Positions 5,058 to 16,505 of a stretch of DNA of 32,253 bases are shown piece after piece. The first letter of the stretch is position 1. Each line of letters opens with the position of its first letter. The position numbers and the translations under genes are program-made. Location of the stretch: assembly GCA_028278645.1 (NCBI GenBank), contig JANQDZ010000089.1:1-32253 (forward strand). The letters run 5' to 3'. The notes under the pieces are model-generated. The model was given only the letters and a program-made list of their open reading frames with translations, had not been told where the DNA came from and did not search any database. Origin of the DNA: Longimicrobiales bacterium (GTDB lineage Bacteria > Gemmatimonadota > Gemmatimonadetes > Longimicrobiales > Gaopeijiaceae).

Positions 5058-5890
5058 GGGTCTTTTGAGAAACTATGTTCGGGACCGGGATAGCTCCCGC
5101 CCTTCACCTCGTCTATGTAGGCCTTCAGGGCCCTCAGAACCTCCTGGTCCAAGTCGGCAAAGCGCTTGAGGAACTTCGGCCGGAACCCGCCGTTCAGACC
5201 CAACGCATCGTAAAGGACCAATACCTGGCCATCACACTTGGGGCCGGCTCCGATACCGATGGTGGGAATCGTGAGGTCTTCGGAGATCTCTTCAGCAAGG
5301 TCAGCGGGGACCAGCTCCAGCACCAACGCGAAGCAACCGGCTTCCTCCAGCGAGCGGGCCTGATGCCGGAGCCGTTCGGCCGTCGCAGCCTCACGCCCCT
5401 GCACCCGATAACCGCCGAGAGCATGGACCGACTGGGGTGTCAGGCCCAAATGACCCATGACCGGGATCCCTGCCCTCACGAGAGTTTCAACCGTGCTGCA
5501 AGTGGGCGCAGCTCCACCCTCCAGCTTGACTGCCTGGACTCCGGTTTCTTTCAGGACCCTCCCCGCATTCCGGAGCGCATCTTCCGTCGACACCTGATAT
5601 GAGAGGAAAGGCATGTCCAGAACGAGAAAGGTCTCCGGCGCCCCCTTCCTGACCGCTTTCCCGTGGTGAATCATCTCGTCCAACGTGACCGGGATGGTGG
5701 AGGGGTACCCTAAAACGACCTGCCCCAAAGAGTCGCCAATGAGGACAAGGTCCACCTCAGCCTCTTCCACGAGGCGGGAGAAGAGAACGTCATAGGCGGT
5801 AATGGCGACGATCTTCTCGCCCTGCCGCTTCATCTCCAGGAATCGAGGGATCGAACCCCGGGGTTTCGGCGATTGGGTTTCGGTGGACAA
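5054..5890 (-). CDS. panB: 3-methyl-2-oxobutanoate hydroxymethyltransferase
   Basis: First committed step of pantothenate synthesis: adds a hydroxymethyl group from methylene-tetrahydrofolate to ketoisovalerate, giving ketopantoate. Hallmarks in order are VAITAYDVLFSRL, LIGDSLGQVVLGY, the metal-binding region, VMGHLGLTPQSV, and TIGIGAGPKCDGQVLV. I chose the TTG at 5890 because AGGAAG sits 6 bases before it, giving 278 residues, a typical PanB length. A GTG at 5968 is also in frame but would add an arginine- and cysteine-bearing tail not expected in the family. It is the first gene of the minus-strand pan block and lies divergent from rqcH, with about 170 bases between for promoters. Confidence 0.95.
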   Translation of the reverse strand: MSTETQSPKPRGSIPRFLEMKRQGEKIVAITAYDVLFSRLVEEAEVDLVLIGDSLGQVVLGYPSTIPVTLDEMIHHGKAVRKGAPETFLVLDMPFLSYQVSTEDALRNAGRVLKETGVQAVKLEGGAAPTCSTVETLVRAGIPVMGHLGLTPQSVHALGGYRVQGREAATAERLRHQARSLEEAGCFALVLELVPADLAEEISEDLTIPTIGIGAGPKCDGQVLVLYDALGLNGGFRPKFLKRFADLDQEVLRALKAYIDEVKGGSYPGPEHSFSKDP

Positions 5891-7750: not shown

Positions 7751-8560
7751 TCAGTCCGCAGCCGGAGCTCCGTCCATTCCCTCCCTCAAACCCTTCAGGA
7801 AGGCACCGGCCCCGGATACCCCACCCTCGTCAAAAGCGTTGATGAGCGCGCTTCCGACCACGACGCCCTCGCACACCCCAGCCACCGAGGCAGCCTGATC
7901 CGGTGTCGAAATGCCGAAGCCGATGGCGATGGGGAGGTCCACTTCCTGACGAATAACCGCTACTTCCCTACCCAGATCCGATCGCAGGTCTTGCCGGGCT
8001 CCCGTCACCCCTGTTCGAGAGATGAAGTAGATGAACCCGGAACCACCCTCCGCCACCTCGTTGATCCTATCCCGACCCGTCGTGGGAGCCACGAGCCGAA
8101 TGAGATCCAGGTCGGAGGAGATGATCTGGCCTTCCAACTCAGGATCGGCCCCTGTAGGGAGATCCGTCAGCAATAGTCCCTGTGCCCCAGCAGCCGTGGA
8201 GGCTTGAAGGAATTCCGGCAGGCCATACTGGAGAACGGGGTTCAAATACGTGAAGAGCACAACCGGAATATCGTGGGAGGTCCTGAACGTCCTGAGGAGA
8301 TCCAGGGTCCCTTCCACCGTCATCCCACCTTCCAACGCCTCGAAGGACGAGCGTTGGATGGTCGGGCCGTCGGCAAGAGGGTCACTGAAAGGGATCCCCA
8401 GCTCCAGGATGTCGCCTCCGGACTCGGCCACCAGCCGCATGAGCTCCAGGGAGATCTCCCGGTTCGGGTAGCCAGCCGTGAGGTAGGGAATCAGGACGCC
8501 TCGGTTCTTTTCCCGATTGCGTGCAAAACAGTCCTGGATGGAGACTGGGGATGAAGTCAT
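7751..8560 (-). CDS. trpA: Tryptophan synthase alpha subunit
   Basis: Cleaves indole-3-glycerol phosphate to indole and glyceraldehyde 3-phosphate and passes indole through a tunnel to TrpB. The 269-residue TIM barrel shows the catalytic pair Glu53 (ILELGIPFSDP) and Asp64 (PLADGPTIQ). The phosphate-binding end has IGFGISTPDQA and VVGSALINAF. Length is normal. It is the last gene of the minus-strand trp operon, 14 bases after the HD-GYP gene and not next to trpB, which is the usual partner. No clear ribosome binding site precedes its ATG, so translation may depend on coupling to the gene before it. Its 3' end faces rqcH with no visible terminator between them. Confidence 0.97.
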   Translation of the reverse strand: MTSSPVSIQDCFARNREKNRGVLIPYLTAGYPNREISLELMRLVAESGGDILELGIPFSDPLADGPTIQRSSFEALEGGMTVEGTLDLLRTFRTSHDIPVVLFTYLNPVLQYGLPEFLQASTAAGAQGLLLTDLPTGADPELEGQIISSDLDLIRLVAPTTGRDRINEVAEGGSGFIYFISRTGVTGARQDLRSDLGREVAVIRQEVDLPIAIGFGISTPDQAASVAGVCEGVVVGSALINAFDEGGVSGAGAFLKGLREGMDGAPAAD

Positions 8561-8574
8561 GGGTGAGCTAACTG

Positions 8575-10017
8575 TCAGACTAGATAGTCACTGACCTTGA
8601 CGCCGTACTTCTCGGGGTCAGTGGTCTTAATGATGGTTCGGGGCGGGGCTCCCGTTTCTGAATCCGTCGCGGCCAGATCCAGCGACACCGGCTCGGCCAG
8701 CGGGACACCCAGCGAGTCGGAAATCACCTTCACGGTCGGCTTGTGGAGGTTGTCCGGATCTTTGCTGACACCACACACCACGGCCATCTCCATGCTGTCC
8801 AGAATGACCAAGGTCCCGATGGGGTAGACCCCGGTTGCATTGATCAGCGCTTTGACCAGGAGTGGGTCCTGGCCACGCCTGGGATTGTCCCGCATTTCGG
8901 CCAGGACCAGGTCCGGCGGGTTGGGCTGGTACTGGTAGCTCCGAATCGAGGTTCCTGCGTCGAAGGAATCCGCCACCGCCACGATCCGACTGAAGAGGGT
9001 CGGTCTCCGAGGCCGTCGGTTCTTTGGGTACCCGGCCAAATCCACCCTCATGTGATGCTCGTACGCCATCAGCATCTGACGGTAGGGCATATCCGGGAAT
9101 CCGTGAAAGTGGAAGAGGGACAAGAGCCCCTCAGTGGGGTGCTGTTGGAGCTCGAACCACTCCTCGTCATCCAAGCCGCCGGGTTTGTTGATGATCTCGT
9201 GATCGATGCGACTCTTCCCGAGGTCGTGGAAAAGAGCCCCTAGGCCCAGCTCGTAGAGCTGAAGTTTGGTGAGGCCGAGGCGTTCCCCAATGAGCACGCT
9301 GAAGATGCACACGTTTACACTGTGGGTGAACGTGTACTCGTCGTAGTCCCTGAGCGTGGTCATGGTGATCATAGAAGTCTCATCGGCCAAGACCTGGTCG
9401 ACGATTCCCTGTACAGCCCGCTTCACCTTCCTGACGTTCACCGCTTTCCCCATCCGGAAGTCGGTGAAGGCTTCCTTCGCGAGGTTCACCGACTGGGCGT
9501 AGGTCCGTTTTGCGGCGTCCAGAGTTTCCTCTTCCAGCTCCGGCTCCTTCACCTCGCTGCTCGGGATCACCTGCAGATGGAGGATAGGGGCACCTGCCAT
9601 CCGGTCCATAAAGGCCGTGAATGGATCCTGGTCACCTGGATCCCGGAGCAACAGAGACAGGAAAGGGGCCCACTCCGCTCGGTCAATTCCCTGGAGTACT
9701 TCGATGGCGCCTACCCCGTGGCCGGTTACCGTTTGCGCGAAGCTCCCGAAGGTGGAGTAGTTCGATAGATCCAACCGGAGTCGGGTTTCGTTGAAGAAGA
9801 AGAAATCTCCGACGACCCTCAGCTCCACCGAGCCCTCTTCGAGCGTGAGTTTCGAGACAAGGTCGTGTAGGTCGTCGAGGGCCTGCTGAACTGCAGAGTT
9901 CTCGAGGGGGTAGAGCTTCAAAGCCCTGAGGACCGAATAGAGCCTCGTGAGCAGCTGCCGGCCCTCTTCCTGGAGGAGGGCCGTGCTCTTGGTCGGGGGA
10001 GAATCATTCTTCGTCAT
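8575..10017 (-). CDS. HD-GYP-like domain protein with a novel N-terminal module
   Basis: A 480-residue cytoplasmic protein without membrane segments. Residues about 20-128 form a domain I cannot name, which resembles the N terminus of the HEAT protein encoded just upstream. From about 180 comes an HD-GYP-like domain: His in FTHSVNV, the HD pair in ALFHDLGKS, NKPGGLDDEEW, the HP of LQQHPTEG, a paired HH followed by GYP, and VADSFDA. HD-GYP enzymes hydrolyse cyclic di-GMP. The signature here is degenerate: HHMRVDLAGYP replaces HHExxDGxGYP, so the Glu metal ligand is Met. It may still cleave a nucleotide or be a binding-only sensor. ATG at 10017 has AGGG 8 bases upstream and lies 4 bases after the HEAT gene's stop. 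Its place between trpB and trpA is unexpected. Confidence 0.88.
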   Translation of the reverse strand: MTKNDSPPTKSTALLQEEGRQLLTRLYSVLRALKLYPLENSAVQQALDDLHDLVSKLTLEEGSVELRVVGDFFFFNETRLRLDLSNYSTFGSFAQTVTGHGVGAIEVLQGIDRAEWAPFLSLLLRDPGDQDPFTAFMDRMAGAPILHLQVIPSSEVKEPELEEETLDAAKRTYAQSVNLAKEAFTDFRMGKAVNVRKVKRAVQGIVDQVLADETSMITMTTLRDYDEYTFTHSVNVCIFSVLIGERLGLTKLQLYELGLGALFHDLGKSRIDHEIINKPGGLDDEEWFELQQHPTEGLLSLFHFHGFPDMPYRQMLMAYEHHMRVDLAGYPKNRRPRRPTLFSRIVAVADSFDAGTSIRSYQYQPNPPDLVLAEMRDNPRRGQDPLLVKALINATGVYPIGTLVILDSMEMAVVCGVSKDPDNLHKPTVKVISDSLGVPLAEPVSLDLAATDSETGAPPRTIIKTTDPEKYGVKVSDYLV

Positions 10018-10021
10018 GATA

Positions 10022-11779
10022 TCAACCCTCACCCCTCAAAGCCCGACTCACCGCGCTCTTCACAACCGGGTCTTGTTCCTCCGCAGCTCTCTCCAAGGCC
10101 GCTGTGGCCTCTGGGGCCTTCATCTTACCCAGGGCGAGGGCGGCACAGGCCCGGATCTCTCCCGACTCCTTCCTTCCCAGGAAACCCCGGCCGTTCAGGA
10201 AACCGTCCAGAAGCTTCACTCCGTCGGGATCCTGAATGAGGCCATAGCTCTCAAAGAACGCGATCTGCTCGGAAAGGTCGGCGTGCCGGATGTCCTTGCT
10301 TTTGATGGCCTCTCGGAACTTGGGAGCGGAAGGTCCGTAACGAAGCTCCCCAAGAGCCTTGGCAGCGGCGATTCGAATCTCACGCTCCGGATCGGAGAGA
10401 GCATCGAGCAACGCCCCCATGGCAGCCGGCATTTTGAGCTCTGTGGAGGCAGTAATGGCCGCCAGGCGCACCCCCGGGTCCTCGTGGGAGAGGAGCCTGG
10501 CGACCTGGGCCGCTGAGTCCTTCAGCTGAAGGGAGCCAACCAGGCTCACAGCCCCTGCGACCACCACCGGGTCCTCGTCTTCCAGACAATCCACTAAAGC
10601 TTCGGAGTACTTCTTCGCGATTCCCCTCACCGAATCCTGGATGATCGTCTTTACCCGGGGGTCTTCGGCCTCTTCGGCGGCCCGCAGGAGTGGACCCAGG
10701 GAGTCGGCCCGGAGGTGTCGGAGGAGAGAGGCAAGCTCCGTTGGATCCGGGGAGATGGATCCGTCTTCCAGCGCCTGGATCAGCTCCCTCAGAGTTTCGG
10801 CTCCACTGACTTCATCGAGGATTTTCTCGGCCGCAATCCGATGGTCCGGCTTGAGGGCATCCTCGGCCGCGAGGAGGCGAACCAGCTCTTCAAGGATCGA
10901 CCCGGCAGCGGCCAGGAGTCCACGGCTCAGGAAGCTGGGAAGGAGGAGCTCGAAGATCTCCAGAATCTCGGTCTGGCGGTCCGGGAAGCGGGGTTCTTCA
11001 ATACGATCGAACAAAGCCGCCAGGACTTCCCCGCGGAGGTCACGCTCCATCTCGATCCGGATTTCTTCCTGGAGGCGCTCCATCTCCAGAGGGTCGAGAG
11101 AATAGAGAGTCGGATTAAAGTCCGCCGCGCTGACGAGACCGGCATTGTCGAGGCCCCCGCCGGCATCGGCGGCCGAATCCCCGGCCTCTTCCATGGCCTC
11201 CGGCCCGATTTCCTCCTGGATGATCTGCTCAAACCCGCCGAAGCCCCCATCCCCGGGCGTGGGTAGTTCCAGATCCATTCCCTGGACCAGGAGGTCGATA
11301 TAGCTATAGGTGAAGTACTTGAGGTCGGCTTCCCAGAGGATGGTCAGAAGATCGTCACCCTCAGGCCGAAGGTCCCTCGCCCTATTCAGGACCTGGAGAA
11401 ACTTCACCAGTTCGTGGACCTCCAGGCCCTCATGGAGTGTGAACTCCCTGATCCCGTCCTTAAACAAAAGGAACGCGAGGGAGTCGGCTCTGGAATCACT
11501 CTCGTAGACAGTTTCCCCCATCCAGACGAACCGCTTTTCCTCGACGGTAACGGGGAGGCGGTCCATCCCGCTCCAGAGAGCCCCCAAGGTCTCCCCGAGC
11601 TGGGACACGAATCGTTGGTATACCGGGTTGTTCTCGTCGTAAAGCTGGTGGGCCCGAAGAGCCTTCCCGAGCACGACAAAGAGACCTTCCACCTCCTCCT
11701 TCGGGAGATCGGAAGTATCGACCCAGTCAAGGCCGTTTCCGGTATCGGAAGTCTCTGCGTCGGGTGGGGTTTGGGTCAC
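10022..11779 (-). CDS. HEAT-repeat protein sharing its N-terminal module with the HD-GYP protein
   Basis: A 585-residue soluble protein. Residues about 30-135 (LFVVLGKALRAHQLY, then VTVEEKRFVWMGETVY, then LHEGLEVHELVKFLQVL) resemble residues 20-128 of the downstream HD-GYP protein. A linker at about 165-225 is acidic and glycine-rich. Residues about 225-585 are alpha-helical and, from about 370, show HEAT-type repeats with the typical DP-V-x-x-A-A-x-A-L pattern, as in DPVVVAGAVSLVGSL, DPGVRLAAITASTEL and EREIRIAAAKALGEL. Such repeats usually serve as protein-binding scaffolds. It starts 4 bases past trpB's stop and ends 4 bases before the HD-GYP start, so all three are likely translated together. 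No enzymatic motif is visible. Function unknown. Confidence 0.88.
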   Translation of the reverse strand: MTQTPPDAETSDTGNGLDWVDTSDLPKEEVEGLFVVLGKALRAHQLYDENNPVYQRFVSQLGETLGALWSGMDRLPVTVEEKRFVWMGETVYESDSRADSLAFLLFKDGIREFTLHEGLEVHELVKFLQVLNRARDLRPEGDDLLTILWEADLKYFTYSYIDLLVQGMDLELPTPGDGGFGGFEQIIQEEIGPEAMEEAGDSAADAGGGLDNAGLVSAADFNPTLYSLDPLEMERLQEEIRIEMERDLRGEVLAALFDRIEEPRFPDRQTEILEIFELLLPSFLSRGLLAAAGSILEELVRLLAAEDALKPDHRIAAEKILDEVSGAETLRELIQALEDGSISPDPTELASLLRHLRADSLGPLLRAAEEAEDPRVKTIIQDSVRGIAKKYSEALVDCLEDEDPVVVAGAVSLVGSLQLKDSAAQVARLLSHEDPGVRLAAITASTELKMPAAMGALLDALSDPEREIRIAAAKALGELRYGPSAPKFREAIKSKDIRHADLSEQIAFFESYGLIQDPDGVKLLDGFLNGRGFLGRKESGEIRACAALALGKMKAPEATAALERAAEEQDPVVKSAVSRALRGEG

Positions 11780-11783
11780 TGGC

Positions 11784-12980
11784 TCACAGGGTTAAGGATT
11801 TCTGCTCCAGCTTTGCGACGTGGGCCACATCCTTGTCACCTCGACCGCTGAGGCAAACCAGGATCGAACCAGGAGCAGAACCGTCCTGGTTCAACCTGGA
11901 AAGGTAGGCCAGGGCATGCGCCGTCTCCAGAGCGGGGATAATCCCTTCCGTCCGGGCCAACCGATGAAATGCCTCCAAAGCCTCGTCGTCTTGGACGGAT
12001 ACATAGCGAGCACGACCGGAATCCCTCAACTGGGAGTGCTCTGGTCCAACACCCGGATAATCCAGACCCGCCGAGACGGAATGGGCCGGTGCCACCTGAC
12101 CATCCTCATCTTGTAGAAGATAACTCAGGGAACCATGTAATACACCAGGCTTTCCGGCTGAGAGGGATGCCGAATGCCTCTGGGTTTCGATTCCCTCTCC
12201 TGCGGCTTCCACCCCGACGAGGGACACATGGGGGTCATGGAGGAAGGCGTGGAAGATCCCCATGGCGTTGGATCCCCCACCGACACAGGCGACGACGGTC
12301 CCGGGCAGGGATCCAGTGGCTTCGAGCATCTGCTCCTTCGCCTCCTGTCCGATCACCGCTTGGAAATCTCTCACCAGACGCGGAAAAGGATCCGGACCGA
12401 CCACGGACCCGATGATGTAGTGGGTGTCGCGAACGTTGGTCACCCAATCGCGGATGGCCTCGTTCGTCGCGTCCTTCAAGGTTCGGGTGCCGGAGGATAC
12501 GGGCCGGACCTCGGCACCCATCAGTTCCATTCGGTAGACGTTCAGCGCTTGGCGGGATACGTCCTCATCCCCCATGTAGACAACGCAGTCCAGTCCGAAC
12601 AACGCGCAGGCGGTGGCCGTGGCCACGCCGTGTTGGCCGGCGCCGGTCTCAGCGATGATCCGCTTTTTCCCCATCCTCAAGGCCAGGAGGACCTGCCCGA
12701 GGGTGTTGTTGATCTTATGGGCCCCGGTGTGGTTGAGGTCTTCCCGCTTCAGGAATACGGGGCCGACGCCCACCTCAGCTTCAAGACGGCGAGCGCGGTA
12801 GAGGGGGGACGGACGCCCGACAAAGTCTTTGAAAAGAGCACCCAGCTCCTTCCAGAAACCCTCTTCTCCCTTGGCAGCTTCGTAGGCTTCCGAGAGTTCG
12901 TCCAAGGCAGGAATCAGGGTTTCAGGTACGTATCGTCCTCCAAACGGCCCGAATCTGCCCACCTCGTTTTGGACCTTCAA
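11784..12980 (-). CDS. trpB: Tryptophan synthase beta subunit
   Basis: PLP enzyme that joins indole and serine to make tryptophan. The 398-residue chain begins [15 protein letters not shown], carries the PLP lysine Lys89 in [10 protein letters not shown], the phosphate loop [12 protein letters not shown] and the late [12 protein letters not shown] segment. It is a standard TrpB1 type rather than the TrpB2 form. The start is TTG at 12980, in a TTGA overlap with the trpF stop and preceded by GGGGAG at about 8 bases. The downstream partner is the HEAT gene, not trpA. About 3.2 kb separates trpB from trpA although both subunits form one complex. Confidence 0.97.
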
Positions 12981-13670: not shown

Positions 13671-14498
13671 TCAATCACTCGTCCGTCCTACCCTGGGACG
13701 CCCGGCGAGTTCTGCGGCGGCCGCCTCCGGCTCCGGAGCCCGAAGGAGGGTTTCGCCCACCAGGATCCCGTGGACTCCAGCAGCCCCGAGGGTATCGACC
13801 TCCTGGGGCGTACGAATGCCACTCTCGGATACCACGGTCACGTAATCAGGGACGGAGGCGAGAAGCCCCAGCGTCACGTCCAGGGATGTGGTGAAAGTCT
13901 GGAGGTTCCGGTTGTTGATTCCCAAGAGGCGGGCGCCGGCTTTCAGCGCCCGGCCTACCTCAGAGGCGTCGTGGACCTCCACCAACGGGGTAAGGCCGAG
14001 AGCGACGGCCTCGGAGTGGAGGGAGGAGAGGGCATCGTCGGTGAGGATCCGGACGATCAGAAGGACGGCATCAGCCCCGGCCGACCGAGCTTCGAGGAGC
14101 TGGATAGGGTGAAGAATGAAGTCCTTCCGGAGAATCGGAATGCCGACAACCTCTCGAACTGCACGCAGATCGTCCAGGGAACCCCCGAAGTACTCCCGGT
14201 CCGTCAGGACGCTCACCGCCCCCGCACCCGCTTGCTCATAGGAAAGGGCGAGGTCCGAGGCCACGAGGTCCCGTCGGATGTGCCCCGCCCCGGGGGACCT
14301 ACGTTTCACCTCGGCTATCAGGCGGACCTCCCGGTCCCACCGAAGGGCCACCGACAGGTCACGGGCAGGCGGAGCGCTTTCCAGCGCTTTCCCAAAATCG
14401 ACTTCTCGCGGAAGGAGGGCTTCCACCTCCCTCCTTTTTGTCTGGACGATCTTATCGAGGATGCCAGATCCCTCTCGGGAACCTTGCGTTTCGGGCAA
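13671..14498 (-). CDS. trpC: Indole-3-glycerol phosphate synthase
   Basis: Closes the indole ring, giving indole-3-glycerol phosphate. The TIM barrel shows ILDKIVQTKRREV at its start, LIAEVKRRSPGAG with the catalytic Lys, the SVLTDREYFGGS loop, ILRKDFILHPIQ, LLGINNRNLQTF and VSESGIRTPQE. All are standard. The start is uncertain. TTG at 14498 gives 275 residues and lies in the gap before lexA. GTG at 14564 would run 11 bases into lexA on the other strand. It is the first gene of the trp operon and shares its upstream region with the lexA promoter, so regulation of the two may interact. Confidence 0.94.
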   Translation of the reverse strand: MPETQGSREGSGILDKIVQTKRREVEALLPREVDFGKALESAPPARDLSVALRWDREVRLIAEVKRRSPGAGHIRRDLVASDLALSYEQAGAGAVSVLTDREYFGGSLDDLRAVREVVGIPILRKDFILHPIQLLEARSAGADAVLLIVRILTDDALSSLHSEAVALGLTPLVEVHDASEVGRALKAGARLLGINNRNLQTFTTSLDVTLGLLASVPDYVTVVSESGIRTPQEVDTLGAAGVHGILVGETLLRAPEPEAAAAELAGRPRVGRTSD

Positions 14499-14512
14499 CG
14501 TTCGGGTATCCT
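14484..14512 (+). promoter_or_regulatory. Predicted lexA promoter
   Basis: TTGCGT at 14484-14489 and TATCCT at 14507-14512 are separated by exactly 17 bases and lie 41 bases before the lexA ATG. The match to the housekeeping consensus is partial (3 of 6 and 4 of 6). The two candidate SOS half-site pairs overlap its spacer and expected start point, which supports it indirectly. Confidence 0.4.
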
Positions 14513-14529
14513 GTATTCGGTTCTTGTTC
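14489..14529 (+). promoter_or_regulatory. Two candidate LexA boxes (GTTC-N7-GTTC type)
   Basis: TTTC-N7-GTTC at 14489-14503 and ATTC-N7-GTTC at 14515-14529 each match 7 of 8 fixed bases of the direct-repeat SOS box known from Alphaproteobacteria. The half-sites are 11 bases apart, one helical turn, in both cases. The first sits between the predicted -35 and -10 elements and the second just past -10, where a repressor would block transcription. The sequence match is seen; LexA binding is inference. Confidence 0.42.
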
Positions 14530-14553
14530 GGGTTTTTCTGGAGGGAAGTGACG

Positions 14554-15162
14554 ATGCCCCTCACGAAGCGTCAAAAAGAGATCCTGGATTTTATCCACGG
14601 CTTCATTGATGAGCACGGGTATGCCCCGAGCTTCGAGGAGATCGCCCATTCCTTCGGCTACTCCTCCTTAGCCACGGTCCACGAACACCTGAGCAATCTG
14701 GAGCGAAAGGGATACATCCGGAAGTCCTATAACGAGAGCCGATCCATCGAGATGGTTCCGGAGGACGTATCCGTTTCAGCCATGGAGCTCCCGCTCCTTG
14801 GGACGGTGGCCGCGGGCCTACCCATCGAAGCCATCCAGGAACAGGAATCCCTGGCCGTTCCGCTGGACATGGTCAGACCGGGAAAGGACAACTTTGTCCT
14901 GAAGGTCGAAGGGGATTCCATGATCGACGAACAGATCAGGGACGGAGACTATATCGTTGTCAGTTCCCAACCGACTGCGTCCGACGGTGAGGTGGTCGTC
15001 GCGTTGGTGGGAGGAGACTCGGTGACGGTAAAACGACTCTTCCGTGAATCGGGTGACCGGATCCGGCTTCAACCGGCCAACTCCACCATGGCCCCGATCT
15101 TGGTCGACGCTGCCGACGTGGCCGTGCAGGGGGTTGTGGTCGGCCTGATCCGACGGTTTTAG
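14554..15162 (+). CDS. lexA: LexA SOS repressor
   Basis: Repressor of DNA-damage genes that cuts itself when stimulated by RecA filaments. The 202-residue protein has an N-terminal winged helix (residues 1-65, with APSFEEIAHSFGYSSLATVHEHL as the helix-turn-helix region). The self-cleavage site is Ala87-Gly88 in VAAGLP. The catalytic dyad is Ser122 in EGDSMID and Lys160 in SVTVKRL. All residues needed for autocleavage are present. The ATG at 14554 follows GGAGGGA at about 8 bases; the frame is open upstream to 14278 but that is antisense to trpC. lexA sits inside the trp cluster on the opposite strand, divergent from trpC and convergent with trpD. Confidence 0.97.
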   Translation: MPLTKRQKEILDFIHGFIDEHGYAPSFEEIAHSFGYSSLATVHEHLSNLERKGYIRKSYNESRSIEMVPEDVSVSAMELPLLGTVAAGLPIEAIQEQESLAVPLDMVRPGKDNFVLKVEGDSMIDEQIRDGDYIVVSSQPTASDGEVVVALVGGDSVTVKRLFRESGDRIRLQPANSTMAPILVDAADVAVQGVVVGLIRRF

Positions 15163-15171
15163 GAGGCTGGC

Positions 15172-15351
15172 GTGCGGAAGACGATCCTGGTGGGACGGTT
15201 AACTCAAAGAAGCTCTGAAATCGTTGTTGTAGAAGGAGTTACGTACTCCCCGATCCCGGGCCCGTGGACTCTTCGGGCCATGGTTCGGTCTGATAGCCCA
15301 CCGTCCGAGCCGCTAATCGAGGGAGTTCGACGCCTCCCGAAGCTCCCGTAG
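15172..15351 (+). CDS. Possible 59-residue small protein downstream of lexA
   Basis: GTG at 15172 follows a perfect AGGAGG (15161-15166, overlapping the lexA stop) at the ideal 5-base spacing. The frame stays open for 59 codons to a TAG at 15349-15351. The predicted peptide begins VRKTILVGRL, contains IVVVEGVTYSPIP and ends RRLPKLP; it has no family I recognise. Its last 39 bases overlap the 3' end of trpD on the other strand. Codon third positions are less GC-rich than in neighbouring genes, which argues against it. A 6-bp hairpin (15259-15264 with 15274-15279) lies within it. The strong ribosome binding site is the main support. Confidence 0.3.
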   Translation: MRKTILVGRLTQRSSEIVVVEGVTYSPIPGPWTLRAMVRSDSPPSEPLIEGVRRLPKLP

Positions 15352-16368
15352 TTTCTCCAAACCCGCCCCGGAATTCAGCCCATCCTGAGCCAACTCCAGA
15401 GCCTCGGGAAGGCTGTCACCCCGCCCCGACACATAGAGGGCCCCCGCAGCATTCAGAAGGACCGCAGCCCTGGCTCCACCGTTTTCCCCCCCACTCAGGA
15501 CCTTGGTAATAACCGCGGCGTTCTCCTCTGGGGTCCCACCTTTCAGTGAGTCTGGGGAGAACGTCCCAAGGCCCAGCTGACCAGGGGTGATCATCCCCTC
15601 CAAGATGGCCCCATCTTCTCTGAGCTCGGCTACCTGCGTGGGTCCCAAAGGGCTCATTTCGTCCATCCCTGGCGAGCCGTGCACCACCAGGGCCCGCTTG
15701 TGTCCGAGCTCTCGAAGGGCTTCCACGATAAGCCAGAGGATTCCCGGCTCGGCGACTCCCACCATCTGCCTGAGGGCGCCGGCGGGATTCGTGAGGGGAC
15801 CCAGGAGATTCATGATCGTGGTGATCCCCAACTCCTGCCGGACCGGGGCCACATGTCGCATGGCCGGGTGGAGCAGAGGTGCGAACATAAAAACGATCCC
15901 GGTCTCCTCCAGGACCTTCCCCATGCTCTCGGGAGACAGCTGAATCTTCACGCCGAGGGCTTCGAGGACGTCGGCGCTCCCACTTTTGGAGGTAAAGGAC
16001 CGGTTGCCGTGCTTCGCCACGCGGACTCCTAGGCCGGCCGCCACCAGCGCCGCCGCGGTGGAGATATTGAAGGTGGTCAGGGCCCCACCCCCGGTCCCAC
16101 ACGTATCCGTGAGTTCCTCTGAATCCGACGCCGGTACAGGCACCATGGCCTTTCGGAGGGCTCTCACACCCCCGGCAACTTCACCAGGGAGTACGCCACG
16201 GGTCCGGAGACCCATGAGGATGGCTCCGACCTGGACCGGCGAAGCTGAGCCGGAGATTACGGCGGAAAACACCTCCTCGGCAGCATCCGGAGGGAGAGCT
16301 TGACCCTGGGCCACCTCTTCGATGAAGGGCCGAAGGTCCTTCTCAGGGCCTTGGTCGGGTCTGGTCAT
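15313..16368 (-). CDS. trpD: Anthranilate phosphoribosyltransferase
   Basis: Transfers phosphoribose from PRPP to anthranilate, the second step of tryptophan synthesis. The family motifs DTCGTGGGALTTFNIST (PRPP/pyrophosphate binding), VAKHGNRSFTSKSGSADVLEALG, HPAMRHVAPVRQELG and NLLGPLTNPA are all present. I chose ATG at 16368 because AAGGAG precedes it by 7 bases, giving 351 residues; the frame is open to 16410. It is not fused to a TrpG glutaminase domain. It lies on the same strand as trpC-F-B-A but is cut off from them by lexA and so probably has its own promoter. trpE and trpG are not visible. Confidence 0.96.
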   Translation of the reverse strand: MTRPDQGPEKDLRPFIEEVAQGQALPPDAAEEVFSAVISGSASPVQVGAILMGLRTRGVLPGEVAGGVRALRKAMVPVPASDSEELTDTCGTGGGALTTFNISTAAALVAAGLGVRVAKHGNRSFTSKSGSADVLEALGVKIQLSPESMGKVLEETGIVFMFAPLLHPAMRHVAPVRQELGITTIMNLLGPLTNPAGALRQMVGVAEPGILWLIVEALRELGHKRALVVHGSPGMDEMSPLGPTQVAELREDGAILEGMITPGQLGLGTFSPDSLKGGTPEENAAVITKVLSGGENGGARAAVLLNAAGALYVSGRGDSLPEALELAQDGLNSGAGLEKLRELREASNSLD

Positions 16369-16505
16369 TTCGTGTCTCCTTCTTCCCTTCCCCTGAAGCT
16401 CCGAAGTCACAAAGACTCCTCAGCGCGCCCTCTTCAACGTTTCAATCGCCCGCGAAAGAGTCCGCTAACGGTACCTAATCGAGGGCGGTCCGGTCCAGCC
16501 TTTTC

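Follow-up and report, generated by a model that had tools for sequence, protein, structure and literature searches.

A HEAT-repeat protein and an HD-GYP protein that share an unnamed N-terminal module form a conserved gene pair in at least four bacterial phyla

Organization of the locus

The window analyzed here is a stretch of 32,253 nucleotides from a Longimicrobiales bacterium of the phylum Gemmatimonadota, and on its minus strand trpB, a gene for a HEAT-repeat protein, a gene for an HD-GYP protein, and trpA follow one another with gaps of 4, 4, and 14 bases. The HEAT gene (10022–11779, 585 aa) is the first of the pair and begins with a GTG at 11779, just past the trpB stop. The HD-GYP gene (8575–10017, 480 aa) is the second and begins with an ATG at 10017, upstream of which stands GAGGGGTGAGG; the frame can also be read from a GTG at 10032, an alternative start farther upstream. 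The HEAT stop codon occupies 10024–10022 and leaves exactly 4 bases (10018–10021) before the HD-GYP ATG, the spacing given in the preliminary description of this DNA. The minus-strand genes trpB (11784–12980) and trpA (7751–8560) are the upstream and downstream neighbors in Gemmatimonadota by synteny, and are treated here as context outside the unit. Elsewhere in the trp cluster (13671–16410), trpC and trpD flank lexA, which is arranged head-to-head with trpC; many Gemmatimonadota regions preserve this order.

The HEAT protein carries the N-terminal module described below (residues 27–158; 11306–11701, minus strand) and, toward its C-terminus, HEAT repeats at approximately residues 327–580 (10040–10801, minus strand), where Pfam HEAT_2 matches in four stretches. 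It scores 89.4 bits against PF13646 (HEAT_2; cut-off 27.7) and 39.9 bits against PF02985 (cut-off 23.5). Other HEAT-repeat proteins of bacteria (PF13646; PBS lyase CpcE/F among them) have similar repeats, but here there is an extra N-terminal module. An identity as a PBS lyase or CpcE-type protein was rejected on NCBIfam scores of 32.7 bits against 300 for NblB and 17.9 against 330 for CpcE.

The HD-GYP protein, also read from the minus strand, comprises the module (residues 16–150; 9568–9972), a conserved linker (residues 160–205, AKRTYAQSV...; 9403–9540) whose columns are nearly invariant among relatives, and the catalytic domain (residues 222–375; 8893–9354), to which the Pfam HD and HD_5 profiles match. 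A match to DUF3391 (PF11871) is weak and sub-threshold, at 22.7 bits against a cut-off of 27.8, and covers only linker residues 155–197 with profile positions 93–135.

The shared N-terminal module

A single-sequence BLASTP comparison of the two proteins gives a weak match, 26% identity over 127 aa with an E-value of 0.008. Profiles of the module built from 41 HD-GYP and 38 HEAT relatives align far more clearly with hhalign (probability 97.6%, E 4.6e-12, score 75.6, 131 columns), over HD-GYP residues 16–150 and HEAT residues 27–158. The best of 60 column permutations reached a score of 23.9, the reversed profile 12.8, and other domain pairs of both proteins at most 18.2. When the whole 4.9-Mb genome was searched in six frames, the HEAT-module profile matched two places only, the HEAT gene itself (3e-60) and the N-terminus of the HD-GYP protein (4.1e-7), and the reciprocal search with the HD-GYP-module profile returned itself (9.9e-62), the HEAT gene (5.9e-4), and then one chance-level match (E 0.68). 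A chance resemblance of the two N-termini is ruled out by the column permutations, the reversed profile, and the genome-wide searches. As judged by profile comparison, the first ~130 residues of the two proteins are homologous, which supports a duplication that placed one alpha/beta module in both.

AlphaFold2 models of the modules, made independently, have a mean pLDDT of 93.8 for the HD-GYP protein and 90.8 for the HEAT protein. Compared by element order and not by superposition, both contain the same ten elements, H-H-E-E-E-H-E-H-H-E, of which the first two helices are long. The preliminary description had aligned the N-termini by eye, and had proposed a profile–profile comparison and predicted structures as checks. 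The alignment is borne out by the hhalign result and the genome-wide matches, and the motifs picked out by eye fall at matching positions in both modules; since the ten elements come in identical order in the two models, the folds agree as far as element order tells.

The module has no counterpart among named families. Neither N-terminus matches a named Pfam or NCBIfam family, and among 41 diverse module sequences no family in these collections matches more than one of them, with a best E-value of 0.0007. Searching the PDB by sequence and by fold returned nothing convincing, a result that does not in itself prove a new fold. Foldseek gave no match with E below 0.5 for either model and VIA-align no Z of 8 or more, and these comparisons with the PDB matched the module to no known ligand-binding or dimer fold. 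We discounted a VIA match to the nuclear pore entry 7fik: with 51 aligned residues it spans just one third of the module, and its Z of 7.4 is of a size often reached by unmatched models. Among the PDB sequence matches, only a cytochrome c555 trimer had a low E-value; the aligned stretch is ~30 residues long and reaches no domain threshold. An identity with a known domain was thus rejected in Pfam, NCBIfam, and the PDB, by sequence and by fold.

The HD-GYP enzyme

The catalytic domain scores 46 bits against PF01966 (cut-off 22) and 39.2 bits against PF13487 (HD_5; cut-off 27.2). Among 41 relatives, H264, D265, H293, H321, H322, and the GYP motif are present in all, H232 in 40, K268 and D353 in 39 each, and D350 in 38, with Glu in the other three. 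The HD diad and the GYP loop are therefore present, as are all seven metal ligands common to both HD-GYP groups, with ligand roles taken from PmGH (PMC4159591). At the position of the eighth ligand, PmGH Glu185, 35 of the 41 have Tyr and the others P, H, or Q; the Glu or Asp of three-metal enzymes is absent, and the protein fits the subfamily with Y/F at this position, which is predicted to bind two metals (PMC4159591). The HD-GYP protein is thus probably an active nucleotide phosphodiesterase, judging from its conserved catalytic residues, in keeping with the nucleotide-signaling output proposed in the preliminary description, and its substrate is possibly c-di-GMP or 3',3'-cGAMP.

Its best PDB relatives by sequence are 5z7c, a 3',3'-cGAMP phosphodiesterase, and 4mcw (PmGH). 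With the phosphodiesterases PmGH, V-cGAP3, and RpfG it shares the HD and GYP motifs, and with PmGH seven of eight metal ligands. It differs from known HD-GYP enzymes in the Tyr that replaces Glu185, in reading HHMRVDLAGYP where HHExxDGxGYP is usual, and in having both an N-terminal module that matches nothing in Pfam, NCBIfam, or the PDB and an adjoining HEAT partner with the same module.

RpfG has a receiver domain, whereas Pfam detects no Response_reg in the present HD-GYP protein, whose proposed partner is a HEAT protein with the same N-terminal module and not a GGDEF protein. RpfG works by direct contact with GGDEF proteins, through its GYP motif (PMC4159591), and the likeness lies in an HD-GYP protein that would act through protein contact. 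In PmxA, an HD-GYP enzyme of Myxococcus, Cache and HAMP domains stand in place of the module (PMC4877007).

Distribution of the gene pair

In all 40 Gemmatimonadota regions examined from the window's class, the HD-GYP gene comes immediately after the HEAT gene, and the commonest junction in these relatives is a start/stop overlap of about 4 bases. The genome collection yielded 79 named loci; in 64 a HEAT-module partner lies upstream, and the other 15 end too soon upstream. None of the 64 loci that extend 1.6 kb or more upstream is without the partner. In loci where a partner could be seen, the pairing of the module HD-GYP protein with a HEAT protein is obligate.

The genome scan also returned L213 (Zixiibacteriota), L218 (Eisenbacteria), and L219 (Thermodesulfobacteriota), of which L213 and L219 carry the complete pair. 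Among the genomes sampled, the module profile found a match in 65 of 148 from Thermodesulfobacteriota, 48 of 50 from Zixiibacteriota, and 37 of 47 from Eisenbacteria, and most matches in these three phyla are same-strand tandem module pairs, ~1.4–2.3 kb apart. There are at least 55 tandem pairs among the 150 matches listed for Thermodesulfobacteriota, 40 in Zixiibacteriota (40 of the 50 genomes sampled have a pair), and 49 in Eisenbacteria; some of the single matches listed are contig ends or have sub-threshold partners. Every one of the 40 pairs examined from these phyla encodes a module-HEAT and then a module-HD-GYP protein. The pairing is therefore kept in one order in at least four phyla (Gemmatimonadota, Zixiibacteriota, Eisenbacteria, and Thermodesulfobacteriota), and the layout is neither rare nor confined to the lineage of the window. 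No fusion of HEAT and HD-GYP in a single chain was seen among the loci examined.

Gemmatimonadota also contain a second, diverged type of pair with identical layout (e.g. L132, L136, and L137). HEAT-module proteins occur without an HD-GYP neighbor as well, which indicates that the module does not require an HD-GYP partner. In a further Gemmatimonadota family, of ~520 aa, the module is combined with HEAT repeats, and no second module gene was detected alongside (L131, L134, L135, L138, and L139). At another Gemmatimonadota locus (L130, 145–5780), three module genes are consecutive, HEAT-like, HD-GYP, and HEAT-like. In L077, a second copy of the pair lies outside the trp context; its HEAT gene carries an early in-frame stop codon (~5320–5511), and the adjoining HD-GYP gene is open. 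At several loci (L264, 5271–5966; L269, 653–1348; also L265, L267, and L273), a small HEAT-repeat protein is encoded immediately downstream of the pair, on the other strand. A module family of 740–760 aa (L286, L288, L289, and L290) has no repeats found by the HEAT profile, and Pfam finds nothing in L286. Downstream of a Thermodesulfobacteriota pair, on the same strand (L262, 3–1410), lie genes that are receiver-like (by eye), CheW (Pfam), and PAS-like (by eye); these are a possible signal input for the pair.

Evolution of the modules

When 70 modules were placed in a tree, the HEAT and HD-GYP modules of the type found in the window separated into two clades with good support (SH-aLRT 100 and 99), each with members from Gemmatimonadota, Zixiibacteriota, and Thermodesulfobacteriota and with similar internal branching; the deep branches between pair types lack resolution. 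Because the two clades each span three phyla and branch similarly, the tree fits one duplication that preceded the spread of these pairs, which would afterward have been inherited or transferred as a unit.

Divergence of the HEAT protein is correlated with that of the HD-GYP protein beyond four neighboring control genes, with partial r of 0.52–0.66, against 0.47 and 0.57 within the proteins and −0.08 to 0.47 for the control genes. The highest value links the HEAT repeats with the HD-GYP domain (0.66), so the excess is not confined to the modules. The co-divergence supports the proteins as a unit, without singling out the modules as the place of contact.

Association with cyclic-dinucleotide signaling domains

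The module and HEAT repeats are found together with other c-di-GMP domains, as assigned by domain profiles. Several large single proteins have N-terminal GGDEF and AAA domains followed by one or more modules and HEAT repeats (L277, L280, and L296 by Pfam). They belong to a set of Thermodesulfobacteriota proteins of 1180–1460 aa with the module, mostly in two copies, and HEAT repeats (L277, 3053–7420 and 7899–12212; L278; L279; L280; L296), and Pfam finds N-terminal GGDEF and AAA_16 in both L277 proteins, L280, and L296; the two L277 genes are consecutive. Other proteins have the module, HEAT repeats, a cNMP-binding domain, and a C-terminal PilZ (L281, 83–4492; L283, 3315–6173; L284, 3484–8553).

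GGDEF genes are present in 37 of 39 relatives. Across 23 genomes of the window's family, GGDEF matches number 0–2 in the four without the HEAT gene and 6–16 in the 19 with it (Mann–Whitney p 0.002, for genomes that are not independent of one another).

Discussion

The HD-GYP enzyme described here is of a known kind, and what is new is the unnamed domain and the fixed two-gene unit across phyla. The preliminary description had proposed a two-protein device of undescribed layout and had suggested a search for the pair in other genomes. The device holds up as a unit, given that the search found the pair in at least four phyla, and the literature searched on HEAT with HD-GYP, GGDEF, PilZ, or Gemmatimonadetes holds nothing describing this layout. 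That the pair is kept adjacent and in the same order over such a range points to an undescribed two-protein signaling unit.

The reading we prefer, and think moderately probable, is an ancient, obligate unit of two proteins, with a cyclic-dinucleotide phosphodiesterase under the control of the HEAT protein via the paired modules. Both proteins would begin with copies of one alpha/beta module derived by duplication, and would be made together from translationally coupled genes, the HEAT protein first. At its two-metal center, the HD-GYP protein would hydrolyze c-di-GMP, or possibly another cyclic dinucleotide, 3',3'-cGAMP, and the HEAT protein would bind this enzyme, most likely module to module. 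The HEAT repeats may then recruit another protein or complex, which would place or switch the phosphodiesterase. The physical heterodimer, the direction of control, the input signal, and the substrate are parts of this model that we infer; heterodimerization through the modules and sensing, as in the preliminary description, are plausible guesses. The HEAT protein, which that description cast as a scaffold output, may equally well be conceived as the input or adaptor side.

Contact between the two proteins is favored because the module HD-GYP protein always has a HEAT-module neighbor where the upstream DNA is visible, and because some GGDEF proteins contain two modules in tandem, an arrangement suited to modules that pair mutually. 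The same two observations speak against an alternative that we regard as unlikely, in which the module is a general domain for homodimerization or higher-order assembly, each protein self-assembles, and the genes are adjacent for the sake of a shared pathway, with no direct contact between the modules. This alternative draws on the presence of the module in solo HEAT proteins, on the divergence of the HEAT-side and HD-GYP-side modules into separate clades, and on co-divergence that is not concentrated in the modules.

A GAF/PAS-like small-molecule sensor, with each protein sensing the same ligand alone and feeding two outputs, seems to us a poor candidate for the module. A compact alpha/beta module N-terminal to a signaling enzyme does occupy the usual position of a sensor, and the insignificant Foldseek matches to the module models include GAF domains. 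However, no fold match is significant, and the conserved residues differ between the two modules, whereas a common ligand pocket should have kept the same ones. A role in tryptophan metabolism, with the pair regulating the trp operon or regulated as part of it, is very improbable and largely refuted: in most Gemmatimonadota loci examined the pair is flanked by trpB and trpA, closely spaced in the window, but it persists between lexA and panB (where the flank is visible) in loci with no trp genes detected (L062, L063, L080, and L081), and additional copies outside the trp context (L076, L077, L088, L089, and L091–L093) and the pairs of other phyla have different neighbors.

The controlled two-protein phosphodiesterase that we prefer can be extended, more tentatively and with somewhat less than even confidence, to a wider system in at least four phyla. 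Paired modules would hold an obligate HEAT/HD-GYP heteromer, to which, in some genomes, the GGDEF-AAA-module-module-HEAT proteins would add a synthesis arm and the module-HEAT-cNMP-PilZ proteins a receptor arm. If this is true, one adaptor fold connects the synthesis, breakdown, and reading of the signal. As it connects HEAT repeats with HD-GYP, GGDEF, and PilZ proteins, the module merits a family entry of its own. To our knowledge, the control of HD-GYP enzymes by partner proteins is little understood, and the pair offers a test case for it, with two proteins, one shared module, and one predicted enzyme activity.
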